DNA of 64,000 nucleotides from Litorilituus sp. (GTDB lineage: Bacteria > Pseudomonadota > Gammaproteobacteria > Enterobacterales > Alteromonadaceae). Both the position numbers and the translations under genes were made by a program. Under the pieces are notes generated by a model. That model searched no databases. It was not told the DNA's origin and saw only the letters and a program-made list of their open reading frames with translations. Below are positions 15,374-55,321 of the stretch, piece by piece; positions within the stretch are counted from its first letter, which is position 1, and every line of letters starts with the position of its first letter. The stretch is taken from the NCBI GenBank assembly GCA_030754235.1, contig JASMAS010000060.1, positions 1 to 64,000 on the forward strand, given 5' to 3'.

Positions 15374-16678
15374 TTGGATAACATATCAACCCAGATGCTG
15401 TTTATCATTCTTGGCATACTGGTTCTCGTCTCAGCCTATTTTTCCGGCTCTGAAACTGGCATGATGTCACTGAATCGCTATCGGTTACGTCACCTTGAAA
15501 AAGAAAAACATAAAGGGGCTAAAAGAGTCAGTAAGCTGCTCGATAGACCTGATCGTCTTATTGGCTTGATATTAATTGGCAACAACTTGGTGAATATTGC
15601 CGCATCATCCATTGCTACAATTATTGCCTTAAGGTTAGCAATTGATATAGGTATATCTAAAGATCTCGCTCTAGGTATAGCAACTATTTTACTTACCTTA
15701 GTGGTGTTGATTTTTGCCGAAGTTACGCCAAAAACACTAGCAGCACTATATCCAGAAAAGATAGCATTTCCAAGCTCTATTATCTTAACGGTACTACTTA
15801 AAATGTTTTTTCCATTTGTTGTGGCGGTCAACTGGATTACTAATGGTATCTTAATGCTGCTAGGTATCAGCTCTGAGCAAAGGGAGCAGCATAGTTTAAG
15901 CAGTGAAGAATTAAAAACTGTCGTCAATGAGTCAGGTGCCTTGTTACATGAGCAAGATCAAAGTATGCTGATGAGTGTACTCGATTTAGAAAAAGTAACC
16001 GTTGAAGATATTATGATTCCCAGAAGTGAACTGGTAGGCATTGATATTAATGACAACTGGAAAATAATACAAAAGCAACTTACCCAATCAAACCACACTA
16101 GAGTACTATTATACAGAGATAATATTGACGATGTTGTCGGTTATATCCATGCTCGTGATGCACTAAAACTATTGTCTAAAAGCCAATTCACTAAAGCAAC
16201 ATTATTACGTGCTGTGCGCGAATTGTATTTTATTCCCAAGAGCACTCCGCTTAATATCCAGCTATTAAAATTTCAACACGCAAAAGAGCGGTTAGGGCTT
16301 GTTGTTGATGAATATGGTGATATTCAAGGCTTAGTCACCTTAGAGGATATTCTGGAAGAAATTGTTGGTGACTTTACCACCACGATGACACCAACACCGA
16401 GCGATGAAGTGACATTACAACCTGATGGTAGCTTCTTAGTTGACGGTAGTGCCAGTATACGTGACATCAATAAAGAGATGTCGTGGCAATTACCAACAGA
16501 CGGACCTAAAACACTTAACGGTTTAATCATAGAATACCTCGAGGATATACCTCAAAGAAAACTCAGCGTCCGCATTGCTGGTTACCCTGTAGAAATTGTC
16601 GACGTGACAGATAATATGATTAAAACAGTGCGGGTTATGCCTGAGCACTTTTATGATGAAGACAATCAAGAAGAGTAA
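15374..16678 (+). CDS. corB: CorB/HlyC-CorC family CNNM transporter
   Basis: A membrane protein of the CNNM/CorB magnesium transport family. Order of domains: DUF21 transmembrane domain (FSGSETGMMSLNRYRLRHL… FAEVTPKTLAALYPE), a CBS pair (VEDIMIPRSELVGID…, IPLNIQLLKFQ…LVVDEYGDIQGLVTLEDILEEIVG region) and a C-terminal CorC_HlyC domain. I chose the TTG at 15374, seven bases after AAAGGA, giving 434 residues; the frame stays open to 15296 inside ypjD, and ATG at 15395 is another option. Orthologue of E. coli yfjD, with the conserved ffh-ypjD-corB setting. Confidence 0.9.
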   Translation: MDNISTQMLFIILGILVLVSAYFSGSETGMMSLNRYRLRHLEKEKHKGAKRVSKLLDRPDRLIGLILIGNNLVNIAASSIATIIALRLAIDIGISKDLALGIATILLTLVVLIFAEVTPKTLAALYPEKIAFPSSIILTVLLKMFFPFVVAVNWITNGILMLLGISSEQREQHSLSSEELKTVVNESGALLHEQDQSMLMSVLDLEKVTVEDIMIPRSELVGIDINDNWKIIQKQLTQSNHTRVLLYRDNIDDVVGYIHARDALKLLSKSQFTKATLLRAVRELYFIPKSTPLNIQLLKFQHAKERLGLVVDEYGDIQGLVTLEDILEEIVGDFTTTMTPTPSDEVTLQPDGSFLVDGSASIRDINKEMSWQLPTDGPKTLNGLIIEYLEDIPQRKLSVRIAGYPVEIVDVTDNMIKTVRVMPEHFYDEDNQEE

Positions 16679-16991: not shown

Positions 16992-17612
16992 TTAACCAAA
17001 AAACAAACGCCATAACCAACCATGGCCTAACTCTTCTTCACAGCTTTTTAATTGCGATGAATACCTGCGCGCACGGTTATCAACTTTTCTTGCCACTTTC
17101 ACTAACCACGGTTTCTTTTTATAGGATTTACGTTTAAATCCTCCCCAACCTTCATGGTAATTTAAGTATTGGCTATAGGCATCCCATTTAGAGACACCAT
17201 TTATTTTTTGAGATTTGTAAATGAACCATCCCATAAAATCAATCGCATCCTCAAAATCATCTCTATCCGCTCCGGTGTTATCCGTTTCTCGCACATAGTC
17301 ATCCCAAGTCATCGTTTTTGCTTGTGAATAACCATAAGCACTACTAACTCTTCCCCAAGGAATAAAGCCAAGTAAATAATCTCTAGGAGGTAAAGCATCA
17401 TGCTTAAAAGAGCTTTCTTGATACATCATACTCATAGGTACATGAATGGGGACCCCCCAACGCTCTTTTACGTCTTTTGCAGCAAAATACCAATCTTGAT
17501 GTTCCCGAAATATCTCACAAATATTTTCAGGGTTTTTGGGTGGGGGAGTAGCGCAGCTTGATAACAGTAGAGCCAACACAATTGTGCTACAGATAAGTTT
17601 GACAAAAGACAT
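16992..17612 (-). CDS. Lytic-transglycosylase-like lipoprotein
   Basis: A 206-residue lipoprotein (lipobox LLSSC, Cys20) with a divergent SLT-type lytic transglycosylase fold. Candidate catalytic Glu66 lies in SMMYQESSFK, followed by AYGYSQAK and a C-terminal YLNYHEGWGG. The family cleaves peptidoglycan without water, leaving anhydromuramic ends; activity here is inferred from these motifs. It is monocistronic, divergent from the two small-RNA units on its 5' side. A near-perfect DnaA box (CTATCCACA, 17632-17640) lies 20 bp upstream of its start. Confidence 0.75.
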   Translation of the reverse strand: MSFVKLICSTIVLALLLSSCATPPPKNPENICEIFREHQDWYFAAKDVKERWGVPIHVPMSMMYQESSFKHDALPPRDYLLGFIPWGRVSSAYGYSQAKTMTWDDYVRETDNTGADRDDFEDAIDFMGWFIYKSQKINGVSKWDAYSQYLNYHEGWGGFKRKSYKKKPWLVKVARKVDNRARRYSSQLKSCEEELGHGWLWRLFFG

Positions 17613-17766: not shown

Positions 17767-17793
17767 GAACTTATTCTGAAAAAGAGACTCCTA
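17767..17793 (+). promoter_or_regulatory. Sigma-E promoter of small-RNA unit 1
   Basis: GAACTT (17767-17772), a spacer of exactly 16 bp and TCCTA (17789-17793). This fits the RpoE consensus (GGAACTT, N16, TCnnA). The same elements with the same spacing occur in unit 2 and before rpoE in this window. Expected start of transcription is near 17800. Confidence 0.7.
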
Positions 17794-17799
17794 CTTATC

Positions 17800-17867
17800 G
17801 GTAACATTATGTTATTCCCTAGTGTTTTATGTTTTGATGCGTTTATCTTAGATAAACGCTTTTTTTT
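17800..17867 (+). ncRNA. Candidate sigma-E-dependent small RNA, copy 1
   Basis: A predicted transcript of about 68 nt that ends in a perfect 9-bp GCGTTTATC / GATAAACGC stem (17839-17859) and eight T, the kind of terminator seen in Hfq-binding small RNAs. There is no + strand gene that it could terminate: the nearest one ends at 16678 behind its own terminator, and the gene between is antisense. The body (17809-17840) is nearly identical to copy 2. It is not recognisably MicA, RybB, VrrA, RyhB, Qrr or CsrB. The exact 5' end is inferred from the promoter. Confidence 0.65.
17839..17867 (+). terminator. Intrinsic terminator of small-RNA unit 1
   Basis: GCGTTTATC, loop TTA, GATAAACGC, then eight T. 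The minus strand reading has an A-run instead, so it works only on the + strand. Confidence 0.85.
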
Positions 17868-17900
17868 GCTTGTTAAACAACAAAACATTTTATTTAAATG

Positions 17901-17927
17901 GAACTTTTTCAGAAAATCCCTTTCTGA
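17901..17927 (+). promoter_or_regulatory. Sigma-E promoter of small-RNA unit 2
   Basis: GAACTT (17901-17906, preceded by G, giving the full GGAACTT), a spacer of exactly 16 bp and TCTGA (17923-17927), a typical RpoE -10. The predicted start is near 17933. Confidence 0.75.
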
Positions 17928-17932
17928 CTATA

Positions 17933-17998
17933 GGAGAGTTGTTATTTCCCTTAGTGTTTTATGTTTTGTGCGCTTATCTTTGATAGGCGCTTTTTTTT
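17933..17998 (+). ncRNA. Candidate sigma-E-dependent small RNA, copy 2
   Basis: A predicted 66-nt transcript paralogous to copy 1. The two share the core TTATT(T)CCCT(T)AGTG and the following TTTTATGTTTTG almost base for base, while their 5' ends differ (GGTAACATTA against GGAGAGTTG). It ends in GCGCTTATC / GATAGGCGC and eight T; the stem differs from that of copy 1 by substitutions that keep pairing (one G-U), which argues that the hairpin is selected. The remainder of the 459-bp gap (17613-18071) holds only the lipoprotein gene's upstream region and a short spacer to gshA. Confidence 0.68.
17970..17998 (+). terminator. Intrinsic terminator of small-RNA unit 2
   Basis: Nine paired bases (GCGCTTATC / GATAGGCGC, one G-U), loop TTT, then eight T on the + strand. 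Confidence 0.85.
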
Positions 17999-18071: not shown

Positions 18072-19655
18072 TTATTTAAAATAATCTGTTAAAAAATCAT
18101 CAAAACTAAGTTTATCATTTGCTTCAATATGAGCTTGCTCTTGATGCGACTTTAACGCTTCATCAATAAAAAACTGCTCAGAGTAAAACTGGTAATCACG
18201 TACAGAGGCTTGTTGTCGATATTGAACGGCTTTATTAAGAGAGTATGTAGAAATACTTTGCCTACCTTCAAGCATAATGGTAAGAAGTTGAGCTGATGGC
18301 GTTAATCGTGAATCATTGATTTTGGCGCGCTCACGCTCAACAGACTTTGTGTAACACTCTGTTTTATAAGCACTATCAAGCAAGCTGGCCACTTTTCCCA
18401 TATCGTCAAAAAGCTCATTTCCCCACTGGCTTATTGATTTTTTATTTACCTGCCCTTTACTGACTACGTCACAGAGTAGTAATTCAGGATCTCGACCGCG
18501 CATGACCACCTCAGTCATATTATTTTCATGATGTTGTTGAGCATCACAATCTAATTCTTTGTTATCGACAAAAGCACAGTAGGTCAAAAAAGTGTCTAAA
18601 AAGTGAATTTGCTCTAAACTTATGCCAGTATCAACAAACGGATTGACATCAAGGGCACGCACTTCAATATACTCTACGCCTCTTTCACGCAACGCTTGGG
18701 AAGGTTTTTCCCCCGACTTGATCACTTGTTTTGGTCTTATAGGGGCGTAAAGTTCGTTTTCTATTTGTAAAACATTAGTATTTAATTGTTGATATTGGCC
18801 ATTCACTTTTACGCCAATATCTGCAAATTTTTTAGACTTTAAGGAAATTGCCTTCTGCACACCATCAACATAATCGTCTAAATTATTATAACAAATCCTT
18901 AAGCTTGACTGCTCACTGCTTGTATAACCTAAATCACTCATCCGCAATGACGTGGCATACTCTAAATATAAAGCACCATTAGGGAGTTTTTTAAAAGGAA
19001 TATTATGATCATCTCCTTGTAAAAAGGAATGACATAACGCAGGAGAACTGCCATACAAATACGGAATTAACCAACAGTAACGCTTATAGTTTCGTAAAAT
19101 TGAAAAATAACGCTCGGAAATAAAATCTTCGAGCGGAGAATCATCCTGATGTAATGCTTGTTGTACTTGCCAAAACTTCGTTGAAAATGAAAAGTTGAAG
19201 TGTATACCAGCAATCACTTGCATCATGGAGCCGTAACGGTTTTTTAACCCTTGACGGTAAACCGTTTTCATCCTACCAATATTGGAACTGCCATATTGTG
19301 CTAGCGGTATTTGCGCTTCATCGTTAACAAAACAAGGCATACTCATCGGCCAAAGCAATTCACTTTTTATATTGGCATAAGTAAATTTTTGAATGTCTTG
19401 TAACTGAGCGATGGTTTGTTCGGCTGAATGACTAACCGGAGTGATAAACTCAAGCAAGGTTTCTGAATAATCAGTCGTAATTTGCCCATGGGTTAATGCT
19501 GCTCCAAGCTCAGTATAATGCGCTTTTTCTGAAAGCTTCCCCTCTGGTAGTATTCGTAATGCTTCTCGCTCTATACCTCGACCAATGCCAGCAATAGCAC
19601 TTAAATTACTTGCTTGATTAAAGGCGGTAATATAATCGTTAAATGATAATGTCAA
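18072..19655 (-). CDS. gshA: Glutamate-cysteine ligase
   Basis: The first and rate-limiting enzyme of glutathione synthesis: ATP-dependent joining of glutamate and cysteine through the gamma-carboxyl. The 527-residue protein is of the gammaproteobacterial type, with GIGRGIEREALRI near the N-terminus, VIAGIHFNFSF and ERGVEYIEVRALDVNPF. The frame begins with TTG (19655) behind AGGA; E. coli gshA also uses UUG, which keeps its translation low, so this start is credible. It stands between the small-RNA units and an M16 protease gene, apparently as a single gene. Confidence 0.96.
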   Translation of the reverse strand: MTLSFNDYITAFNQASNLSAIAGIGRGIEREALRILPEGKLSEKAHYTELGAALTHGQITTDYSETLLEFITPVSHSAEQTIAQLQDIQKFTYANIKSELLWPMSMPCFVNDEAQIPLAQYGSSNIGRMKTVYRQGLKNRYGSMMQVIAGIHFNFSFSTKFWQVQQALHQDDSPLEDFISERYFSILRNYKRYCWLIPYLYGSSPALCHSFLQGDDHNIPFKKLPNGALYLEYATSLRMSDLGYTSSEQSSLRICYNNLDDYVDGVQKAISLKSKKFADIGVKVNGQYQQLNTNVLQIENELYAPIRPKQVIKSGEKPSQALRERGVEYIEVRALDVNPFVDTGISLEQIHFLDTFLTYCAFVDNKELDCDAQQHHENNMTEVVMRGRDPELLLCDVVSKGQVNKKSISQWGNELFDDMGKVASLLDSAYKTECYTKSVERERAKINDSRLTPSAQLLTIMLEGRQSISTYSLNKAVQYRQQASVRDYQFYSEQFFIDEALKSHQEQAHIEANDKLSFDDFLTDYFK

Positions 19656-54632: not shown

Positions 54633-55208
54633 CTATTTGAGCAAAGGAGCTATTTTTTTATCGATAGCATCACGCGCCCTAAATATGCGAGAGCGCACAG
54701 TGCCAACAGGGCACTCCATAACAGTCGCTATTTCTTCATAACTTAAACCTTCTATTTCTCGAAAGTTTATAGCAATACGCAAATCATCCGGTAATTGCTC
54801 AATTGTTTTAAAGATAACAGCTTTAATTTCTTCCGTGAGTAAAACTTTTTCAGGTGAAGCACTTTCTCTTAACGCCTCTCCACCGTCATAAAATTCAGCA
54901 TCTTCTACTTCAACATCATTGCTTGGGGGTTTTCTGCCAAGCGCTACACTGTGATTTTTTGCACAGTTAACCGCAATACGGTATAACCAAGTGTAAAATG
55001 CACTTTCGCCTCTAAAGTTAGGTAAAGCACGATAAGCTTTGATAAAAGCTTCCTGCACTATATCTGGCACATCACTGTTATTGCTCACATATCGTGACAC
55101 TAAATTAGCCACTTTATGCTGATATTTTGTTACCAACAGGTTAAAGGCGTTTTTATCGCCTTTTTGTACCCGTTCAACCAATACTTGGTCGACGTTCTGT
55201 TCGCTCAT
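54633..55208 (-). CDS. rpoE: RNA polymerase sigma-E factor RpoE
   Basis: ECF sigma factor for envelope stress. The 191-residue product from the ATG at 55208 ([26 protein letters not shown]) matches E. coli RpoE in length and start; the frame also has an ATG three codons upstream (55217), nearer to AGGAG. Region 2 ([35 protein letters not shown]) and region 4 ([35 protein letters not shown]) are complete. Its own promoter is of the sigma-E type, and so are those of the two small-RNA units at 17767-17998. Confidence 0.98.
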
Positions 55209-55294
55209 TTGAGCCATATCTCCTACTGCTACCACCAAGTAATATGGGGGATAAAAATCACTTTCTACATTTGGCTCATAACAAACGCATCAAT

Positions 55295-55321
55295 TAAGAC
55301 TATAGCTTTTAAAAAAAGTTC
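55295..55321 (-). promoter_or_regulatory. Sigma-E autoregulatory promoter of rpoE
   Basis: On the minus strand GAACTT (55321-55316), a 16-bp spacer and TCTTA (55299-55295), about 85 bp upstream of the rpoE start. This fits the RpoE consensus and the known autoregulation of rpoE. Confidence 0.75.

Follow-up and report, generated by a model that had tools for sequence, protein, structure and literature searches.

A 64-kb window of DNA (the whole stretch analyzed here, 64,000 nucleotides) carries, in the gap between a transglycosylase gene and gshA, a pair of similar plus-strand units at 17767-17998. Why would two short sequences, each apparently with its own promoter and terminator, stand side by side in such a gap, and what might their products do? 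A reading made from the sequence alone had proposed that they are a tandem pair of sigma-E-dependent small RNAs that silence outer membrane protein mRNAs. The relevant features are these:

16992..17612, minus strand: SLT_4 transglycosylase gene, left synteny marker (Pfam PF19489, E 6.7e-82)
17767..17793, plus strand: unit 1, predicted sigma-E-type promoter (GAACTT 17767-17772, 16-nt spacer, TCCTA 17789-17793)
17799..17867, plus strand: unit 1, predicted small RNA of about 69 nt (5' end placed from the -10 box)
17825..17835, plus strand: unit 1, presumed seed UUUUAUGUUUU, predicted to pair across the porin start codon
17839..17867, plus strand: unit 1, intrinsic terminator (9-bp hairpin 17839-17859, eight T 17860-17867)
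17901..17927, plus strand: unit 2, predicted sigma-E-type promoter (GAACTT 17901-17906, 16-nt spacer, TCTGA 17923-17927)
17933..17998, plus strand: unit 2, predicted small RNA of about 66 nt
17957..17967, plus strand: unit 2, presumed seed UUUUAUGUUUU
17970..17998, plus strand: unit 2, intrinsic terminator (9-bp hairpin 17970-17990, eight T 17991-17998)
18072..19655, minus strand: gshA, right synteny marker (TIGR01434, E 5.1e-184)
54633..55238, minus strand: rpoE ORF, above the NCBIfam cut-off for RpoE
55295..55321, minus strand: rpoE promoter, used for comparison (GAACTT-N16-TCTTA)

The boxes, the 16-bp spacer and the hairpin with eight T that the sequence-only reading had described are borne out at these coordinates in both units. 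Its statement that no plus-strand gene lies within 1 kb upstream also holds for ORFs of at least 60 aa, the nearest plus-strand ORF upstream ending at 16678 and so leaving 1,089 nt up to the first -35 box. Both units fold more stably than shuffled sequences (z -2.97 for unit 1 and -3.72 for unit 2), and for neither was any of 200 shuffles equally stable. UUUUAUGUUUU is wholly unpaired in the predicted fold of unit 2. In the minimum-energy fold of unit 1, which accounts for just 0.087 of the ensemble, the segment is open except at its first two letters, which are paired. The 5' part of the unit 2 RNA (GAGAG..TTTCCC) is like the form found in other genera. Judged by these features, each unit appears to fit a free-standing intergenic RNA gene with an intrinsic terminator.

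A covariance model built from 42 units matched unit 1 (E 6.1e-11) and unit 2 (E 8.6e-10) in their own genome, values that are not independent because both window units are among the 42. That genome holds these two copies only, the next match (E 4.2) being the rpoE promoter region. Three other readings of the units were dropped on inspection, namely a small coding gene (the ATG in the core of the Colwellia consensus reads four codons and then a stop), a Csr-type RNA (the consensus lacks repeated GGA) and a bidirectional terminator for gshA (the minus strand lacks a T-run).

The promoter and its counterpart before rpoE

The pattern GAACTW-N16-TCNNA occurs at exactly three sites in the window: unit 1, unit 2 and 55295-55321 on the minus strand, upstream of rpoE. 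Downstream of this rpoE gene follow in turn rseA-, rseB- and rseC-like ORFs, for which the right models were matched with scores below their NCBIfam cut-offs; the RseA ORF exceeds both Pfam domain cut-offs. The three sites alone are not beyond chance, because shuffles contain 0.99 sites on average and three or more turn up in 11 of 100. What gives the pattern its weight is its conservation in relatives. GAACTT-N16-TC[TCA]TA stands upstream of rpoE in all 39 Colwellia genomes examined, the window's own genome included. A profile search of the window and the 29 loci first fetched from relatives returned 123 matches, 71 of them promoter-bearing units and 52 others. GAACTW-N16-TCNNA with exact spacing is present in 70 of the 71 and 1 of the 52, a contrast that arises partly by construction, since the classes were split by the reach of the profile match, but the exact spacing does not. 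The -10 box is TCTTA in 66 of the 71. Across Colwellia and the other genera, the 16-nt length of the spacer is conserved and its letters vary.

A weight matrix derived from rpoE promoters alone placed unit 1 20th among the 23 sites that scored over 8 bits in 337 kb, a set without unit 2; it was dropped as too narrow, having been fitted to one orthologous promoter, and was replaced by the box-and-spacing count. By that count the promoters of the units appear to be of the sigma-E type. They share boxes and spacing with the promoter before rpoE, as had been claimed, and the occurrence of the same layout before rpoE in every Colwellia genome examined lends support to the proposed control by sigma-E.

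Spread among relatives, arrays and terminator covariation

An exact-pattern scan of named genomes yielded 67 stretches, mostly from Colwellia and otherwise from Cognaticolwellia, Thalassotalea, Thalassomonas and Alteromonadaceae assemblies. With BLAST, 32 of 37 same-genus genomes gave a match, as did 34 of 61 genomes overall, a total that includes two weak matches (G047 and G051) from other families of the order, covering short parts of the query only. Of 395 genomes from the family, 116, spread over 26 of 52 genera, gave a match to the covariance model under stricter filters that lose weak matches; in an order-wide sample the count was 9 of 295, all nine from the same family. Every one of the 31 same-genus genomes among those listed in the family-wide scan has a match, the listing having no entries for 259 genomes without one. 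A search of plasmids for the unit gave no match. In Colwellia and in other genera the unit often lies between the transglycosylase gene and gshA. The array adjoins one or both of these genes in 19 of the 29 first-fetched Colwellia loci, and neither marker gene is within the fetched stretch in the other 10. From other genera, 20 regions were fetched, of which 10 carry the array at this position too.

The window does hold a tandem pair, but to speak of a pair is too modest for relatives, in which the number of units at the locus ranges from one to 15-16 and dispersed copies occur besides. The biggest array (L016) has 15-16 units, one weak unit making the difference, and 5 of them bear promoters. 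Promoterless units mostly end 100-125 bp past the preceding unit, and the 31 of them that were aligned share a core. Exact TTTCATG is found in 21 of the 52, TGTTATT in 39 and a six-T run in 40; several are truncated, two that were folded gave z of -1.44 and -0.44, and one of the 52 is a diverged gshA-side unit clipped by the end of its locus. Arrays L016, L018, L024, L025 and L027 contain promoterless repeats with part of the core and usually the terminator.

Six of the 71 promoter-bearing units belong to a diverged type next to gshA. A diverged promoter-bearing unit with the core TCCCTGGATTGCTTTCATTT is the last in the array in seven Colwellia loci, and resembles the unit adjoining gshA in other genera:

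L018:20-126 (minus strand), TCCCTGGATTGCTTTCATTT unit
L020:985-1091 (minus strand), TCCCTGGATTGCTTTCATTT unit
L021:2586-2692, TCCCTGGATTGCTTTCATTT unit
L024:669-776 (minus strand), TCCCTGGATTGCTTTCATTT unit
L026:639-745 (minus strand), TCCCTGGATTGCTTTCATTT unit
L027:2974-3058, TCCCTGGATTGCTTTCATTT unit
L028:759-872, TCCCTGGATTGCTTTCATTT unit

The 20 regions from other genera gave 49 model matches. The promoter is present with the exact 16-nt spacing in 48 of them, the exception containing an N; 26 of the 49 have TCTTA as the -10 box, and 31 contain exact TTTCATGTTTT. In these matches 99.7% of the cells of the terminator helix are paired, compared with at most 68.3% in slid controls, and changes on both sides occur in all six pairs (71 both-side-change cells versus 16.8 in shuffles, with 0 of 500 shuffles as high), a count that leans towards pairing because the sequences, although absent from the model, were aligned to its structure. 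The sequence-only reading had named loss of boxes and hairpins between conserved flanks as a sign against it; what we found in relatives is that boxes, spacing and terminator pairing are kept, often at the same locus.

In four of these regions (L338, L339, L348 and L350), the interval between the transglycosylase gene and gshA contains further related units whose promoter layout is unchanged but whose cores differ. One core has CCCTTGGA and another, adjoining gshA, has CCTCCCTGGACTGCTTTC, these types being spread over the four regions, not each type in each. From its sequence, this interval resembles a cluster of different sigma-E small RNA types; in the window there is a single type, present twice.

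Complementarity of the core to porin start regions

The conserved core reads UUCCCUUAGUGUUUCAUGUUUUA in the Colwellia consensus and UUUUAUGUUUU in the window's own species. We took it to be the likely pairing segment because it is conserved across the genus and is needed for neither terminator nor promoter. Porins matching PF13609 (Porin_4) are present in all 39 Colwellia genomes. Our porin set comprised 106 of 110 start regions from the PF13609 matches listed (30 loci plus 80 fetched), with L211, L264, L265 and L276 left out for start picks that were wrong on inspection, and the background comprised 583 start regions from two Colwellia genomes, with automatic start picks and no gene-by-gene matching. 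Perfect complementarity to the core over at least 9 nt occurs in 39 of the 106 porins versus 12 of the 583 other genes, a comparison in which Fisher p-values overstate independence, the porins being mutually related, and in which the 9-nt threshold was fixed after a first look at the data; the direction is unchanged at thresholds from 8 to 12. The remaining 67 porins have no 9-nt match. When similar porin start regions are removed, 12 of 37 match, and within starts that read ATGAAA the counts are 30 of 66 porins versus 5 of 59 others. Only 1 of 500 shuffled cores reached 39 porin matches. The background still includes porins: a G032 gene in it that matches over 12 nt is among the porins listed, and its presence there lessens the contrast.

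The commonest porin match spans the start codon (AAAACAUGAAA), a sequence that may in part be common start context of exported proteins. A 12-nt match starting 27 nt upstream of the start codon is found in five of the eight start regions examined from one porin subfamily (L282-L285 and L287, within L282-L289). Porins of other genera (L355-L382, 28 of 30 loci, the weak matches L383 and L384 being excluded) matched the core form of those genera over at least 9 nt in 14 of 28 cases versus 2 of 144 for other genes, and 0 of 500 shuffled cores did as well. The direction there is the same at thresholds of 8 to 11, with no matches at 12, and within ATGAAA starts 12 of 24 porins matched versus 7 of 85 background genes pooled with those of Colwellia.

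The window's own genome has one Porin_4 match among the matches listed. This porin could pair with both units along an uninterrupted stretch of 11 positions that includes one G-U, and of 263 genes sampled from the genome 1 equals this pairing for unit 1 and 0 for unit 2. Ranking by the energy of the whole duplex, in which long gapped duplexes dominate, does not single out porins: the own porin comes 88th and 159th of 263, and the G032 porin (L167) 81st of 320. Matches are also in excess, though less so, at the start regions of small OMP_b-brl proteins (5 of 30), three of the 30 matching over 11 to 15 nt. An exact search with AGGGAATAACATG across the 39 Colwellia genomes gave 9 matches versus 1 for the reversed control, and none in the window's own genome; one of the nine is a porin start (G025) and four are open frames of less than 25 residues. 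This pattern is a lead to porins, not proof. The conserved segment thus appears complementary to the mRNAs of outer membrane proteins, here porins. For the silencing of such mRNAs, the complementarity at porin starts is in favor and the whole-duplex energy ranking disagrees.

Among 320 sampled G032 genes, the top whole-duplex partner of the consensus core is L196:3740-5096, at -26.0 kcal/mol. Its protein reads like RseP by inspection. If it is RseP, and if the pairing occurs, there would be feedback on sigma-E activation.

Proposed role, alternatives and known systems

We think it probable that the two units each encode a trans-acting small RNA, about 65-70 nt long, that is driven by sigma-E, terminates itself and blocks the translation of porin mRNAs. 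Envelope stress would free sigma-E, RNA polymerase with sigma-E would transcribe the units, and the intrinsic terminator of each would end its RNA. The largely exposed conserved segment (UUCCCUUAGUGUUUCAUGUUUUA; UUUUAUGUUUU here) would then base-pair with the mRNAs of porins, in most cases across the start codon (AAAACAUGAAA) and probably aided by Hfq, to which the U-rich RNA end would be suited; an hfq gene is present in the genome. Covering the start codon would block translation and reduce the burden of porins during envelope repair by the RpoE response, and in this manner the units probably shut off porin production. The early steps of this scheme rest on promoter identity, and the last on complementarity. 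In Colwellia and other marine bacteria, porins control the uptake of nutrients, so a regulator of this kind would, if the scheme is true, have ecological reach. The original reading of the pair as sigma-E small RNAs is, so far as sequence comparison goes, largely supported.

Other explanations have to be set against this one. Sigma-E small RNAs might have other envelope mRNAs as their main targets, with the complement of AUG reflecting a generic start context; the whole-duplex ranking does not favor porins, the best of the 320 G032 duplexes is with the RseP-like mRNA (named by inspection), and the matches of 11 to 15 nt in three OMP_b-brl start regions point the same way. We nevertheless consider this unlikely, although worth keeping in view, given that the porin enrichment holds within ATGAAA starts and against shuffled cores and recurs in other genera. 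The units could also be driven by a different ECF sigma factor with a sigma-E-like promoter. ECF promoters often have an AAC core in the -35 box, and unit 2 has TCTGA, not TCTTA, as its -10 box. This is improbable in our view, because the boxes and spacing are those found before rpoE in 39 of 39 Colwellia genomes and TCTTA is the commonest -10 box, both in Colwellia units and in other genera.

Tandem arrays and dispersed, promoterless and truncated copies are also what a repetitive, mobile-element-like sequence might leave behind, one that spreads itself and whose promoter and terminator serve no regulation. We judge this very improbable, as the units occupy the same locus across genera, their terminators show compensatory changes, the promoter spacing is exact despite variable spacer letters, and the core is complementary to porin mRNAs. 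The position between gshA and the transglycosylase gene would suit mere terminators, or an antisense or leader element for either gene. Both, however, are minus-strand genes, whereas it is on the plus strand that each hairpin leads into its T-run, and at the 10 first-fetched Colwellia loci noted above neither gene is in the fetched stretch, so that we give this idea hardly any credence.

On the account that we prefer, in which the units are sigma-E small RNAs directed at porins, the array itself could be a regulatory device, a speculation that we offer with considerable doubt. Sigma-E would fire several promoter-bearing units that leak into promoterless cistrons holding much of the core and mostly the terminator, stress intensity would set the dosage and length of the RNA, and recombination would tune copy number. 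Several other genera would have a cluster of sigma-E small RNA types, with their own promoters and terminators and with different cores for different outer membrane proteins.

No family in Rfam 15 reaches its threshold at the units, and among matches with E up to 10 around them there are nine weak ones, none of which is MicA, RybB or VrrA, which we take to be present as Rfam families. The window's only matches at gathering score are to introns, both of them group II intron family matches on the minus strand (530-600 and 2376-2545). We found no prior description of the units in the open-access literature, a scope with bioRxiv and most subscription papers outside it, and the suggestion that they are undescribed holds for Rfam 15 and for that literature. 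A Shewanella small RNA survey names Colwellia psychrerythraea 34H (PMC5471319). By sequence, the units would be a new RNA family with a mode of action (sigma-E, in the manner of MicA, RybB and VrrA) that is already known.

VrrA of Vibrio is, according to PMC2628432, a sigma-E-dependent small RNA with a conserved sigma-E site, as the units are proposed to be, but it is 140 nt long, whereas the units are about 65-70 nt, tandem, and without an Rfam match to VrrA. FoxI and FoxJ of Fusobacterium are described in PMC11005410 as a sigma-E-dependent pair that represses an abundant porin, a likeness by description only, as FoxJ is about 156 nt and Fusobacterium belongs to another phylum. In enterobacteria, MicA and RybB carry out sigma-E-driven silencing of outer membrane protein mRNAs, again according to PMC2628432. 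That is the activity proposed for the units, which differ from MicA and RybB in having no Rfam match, multicopy arrays in relatives and a presumed seed over the start codon.

PrrF1/PrrF2 and OmrA/OmrB have two copies each and are under other regulators. Like the units, they are tandem sibling small RNAs, and according to PMC4211561 PrrH arises by readthrough of the first prrF terminator, which offers a precedent for reading through an array. The table in that source gives tandem siblings at most 2-6 copies (PMC4211561). What is unusual here is an array that reaches 15-16 units and has promoterless ones among them, and such arrays provide a natural series for studying why bacteria multiply small RNA genes.
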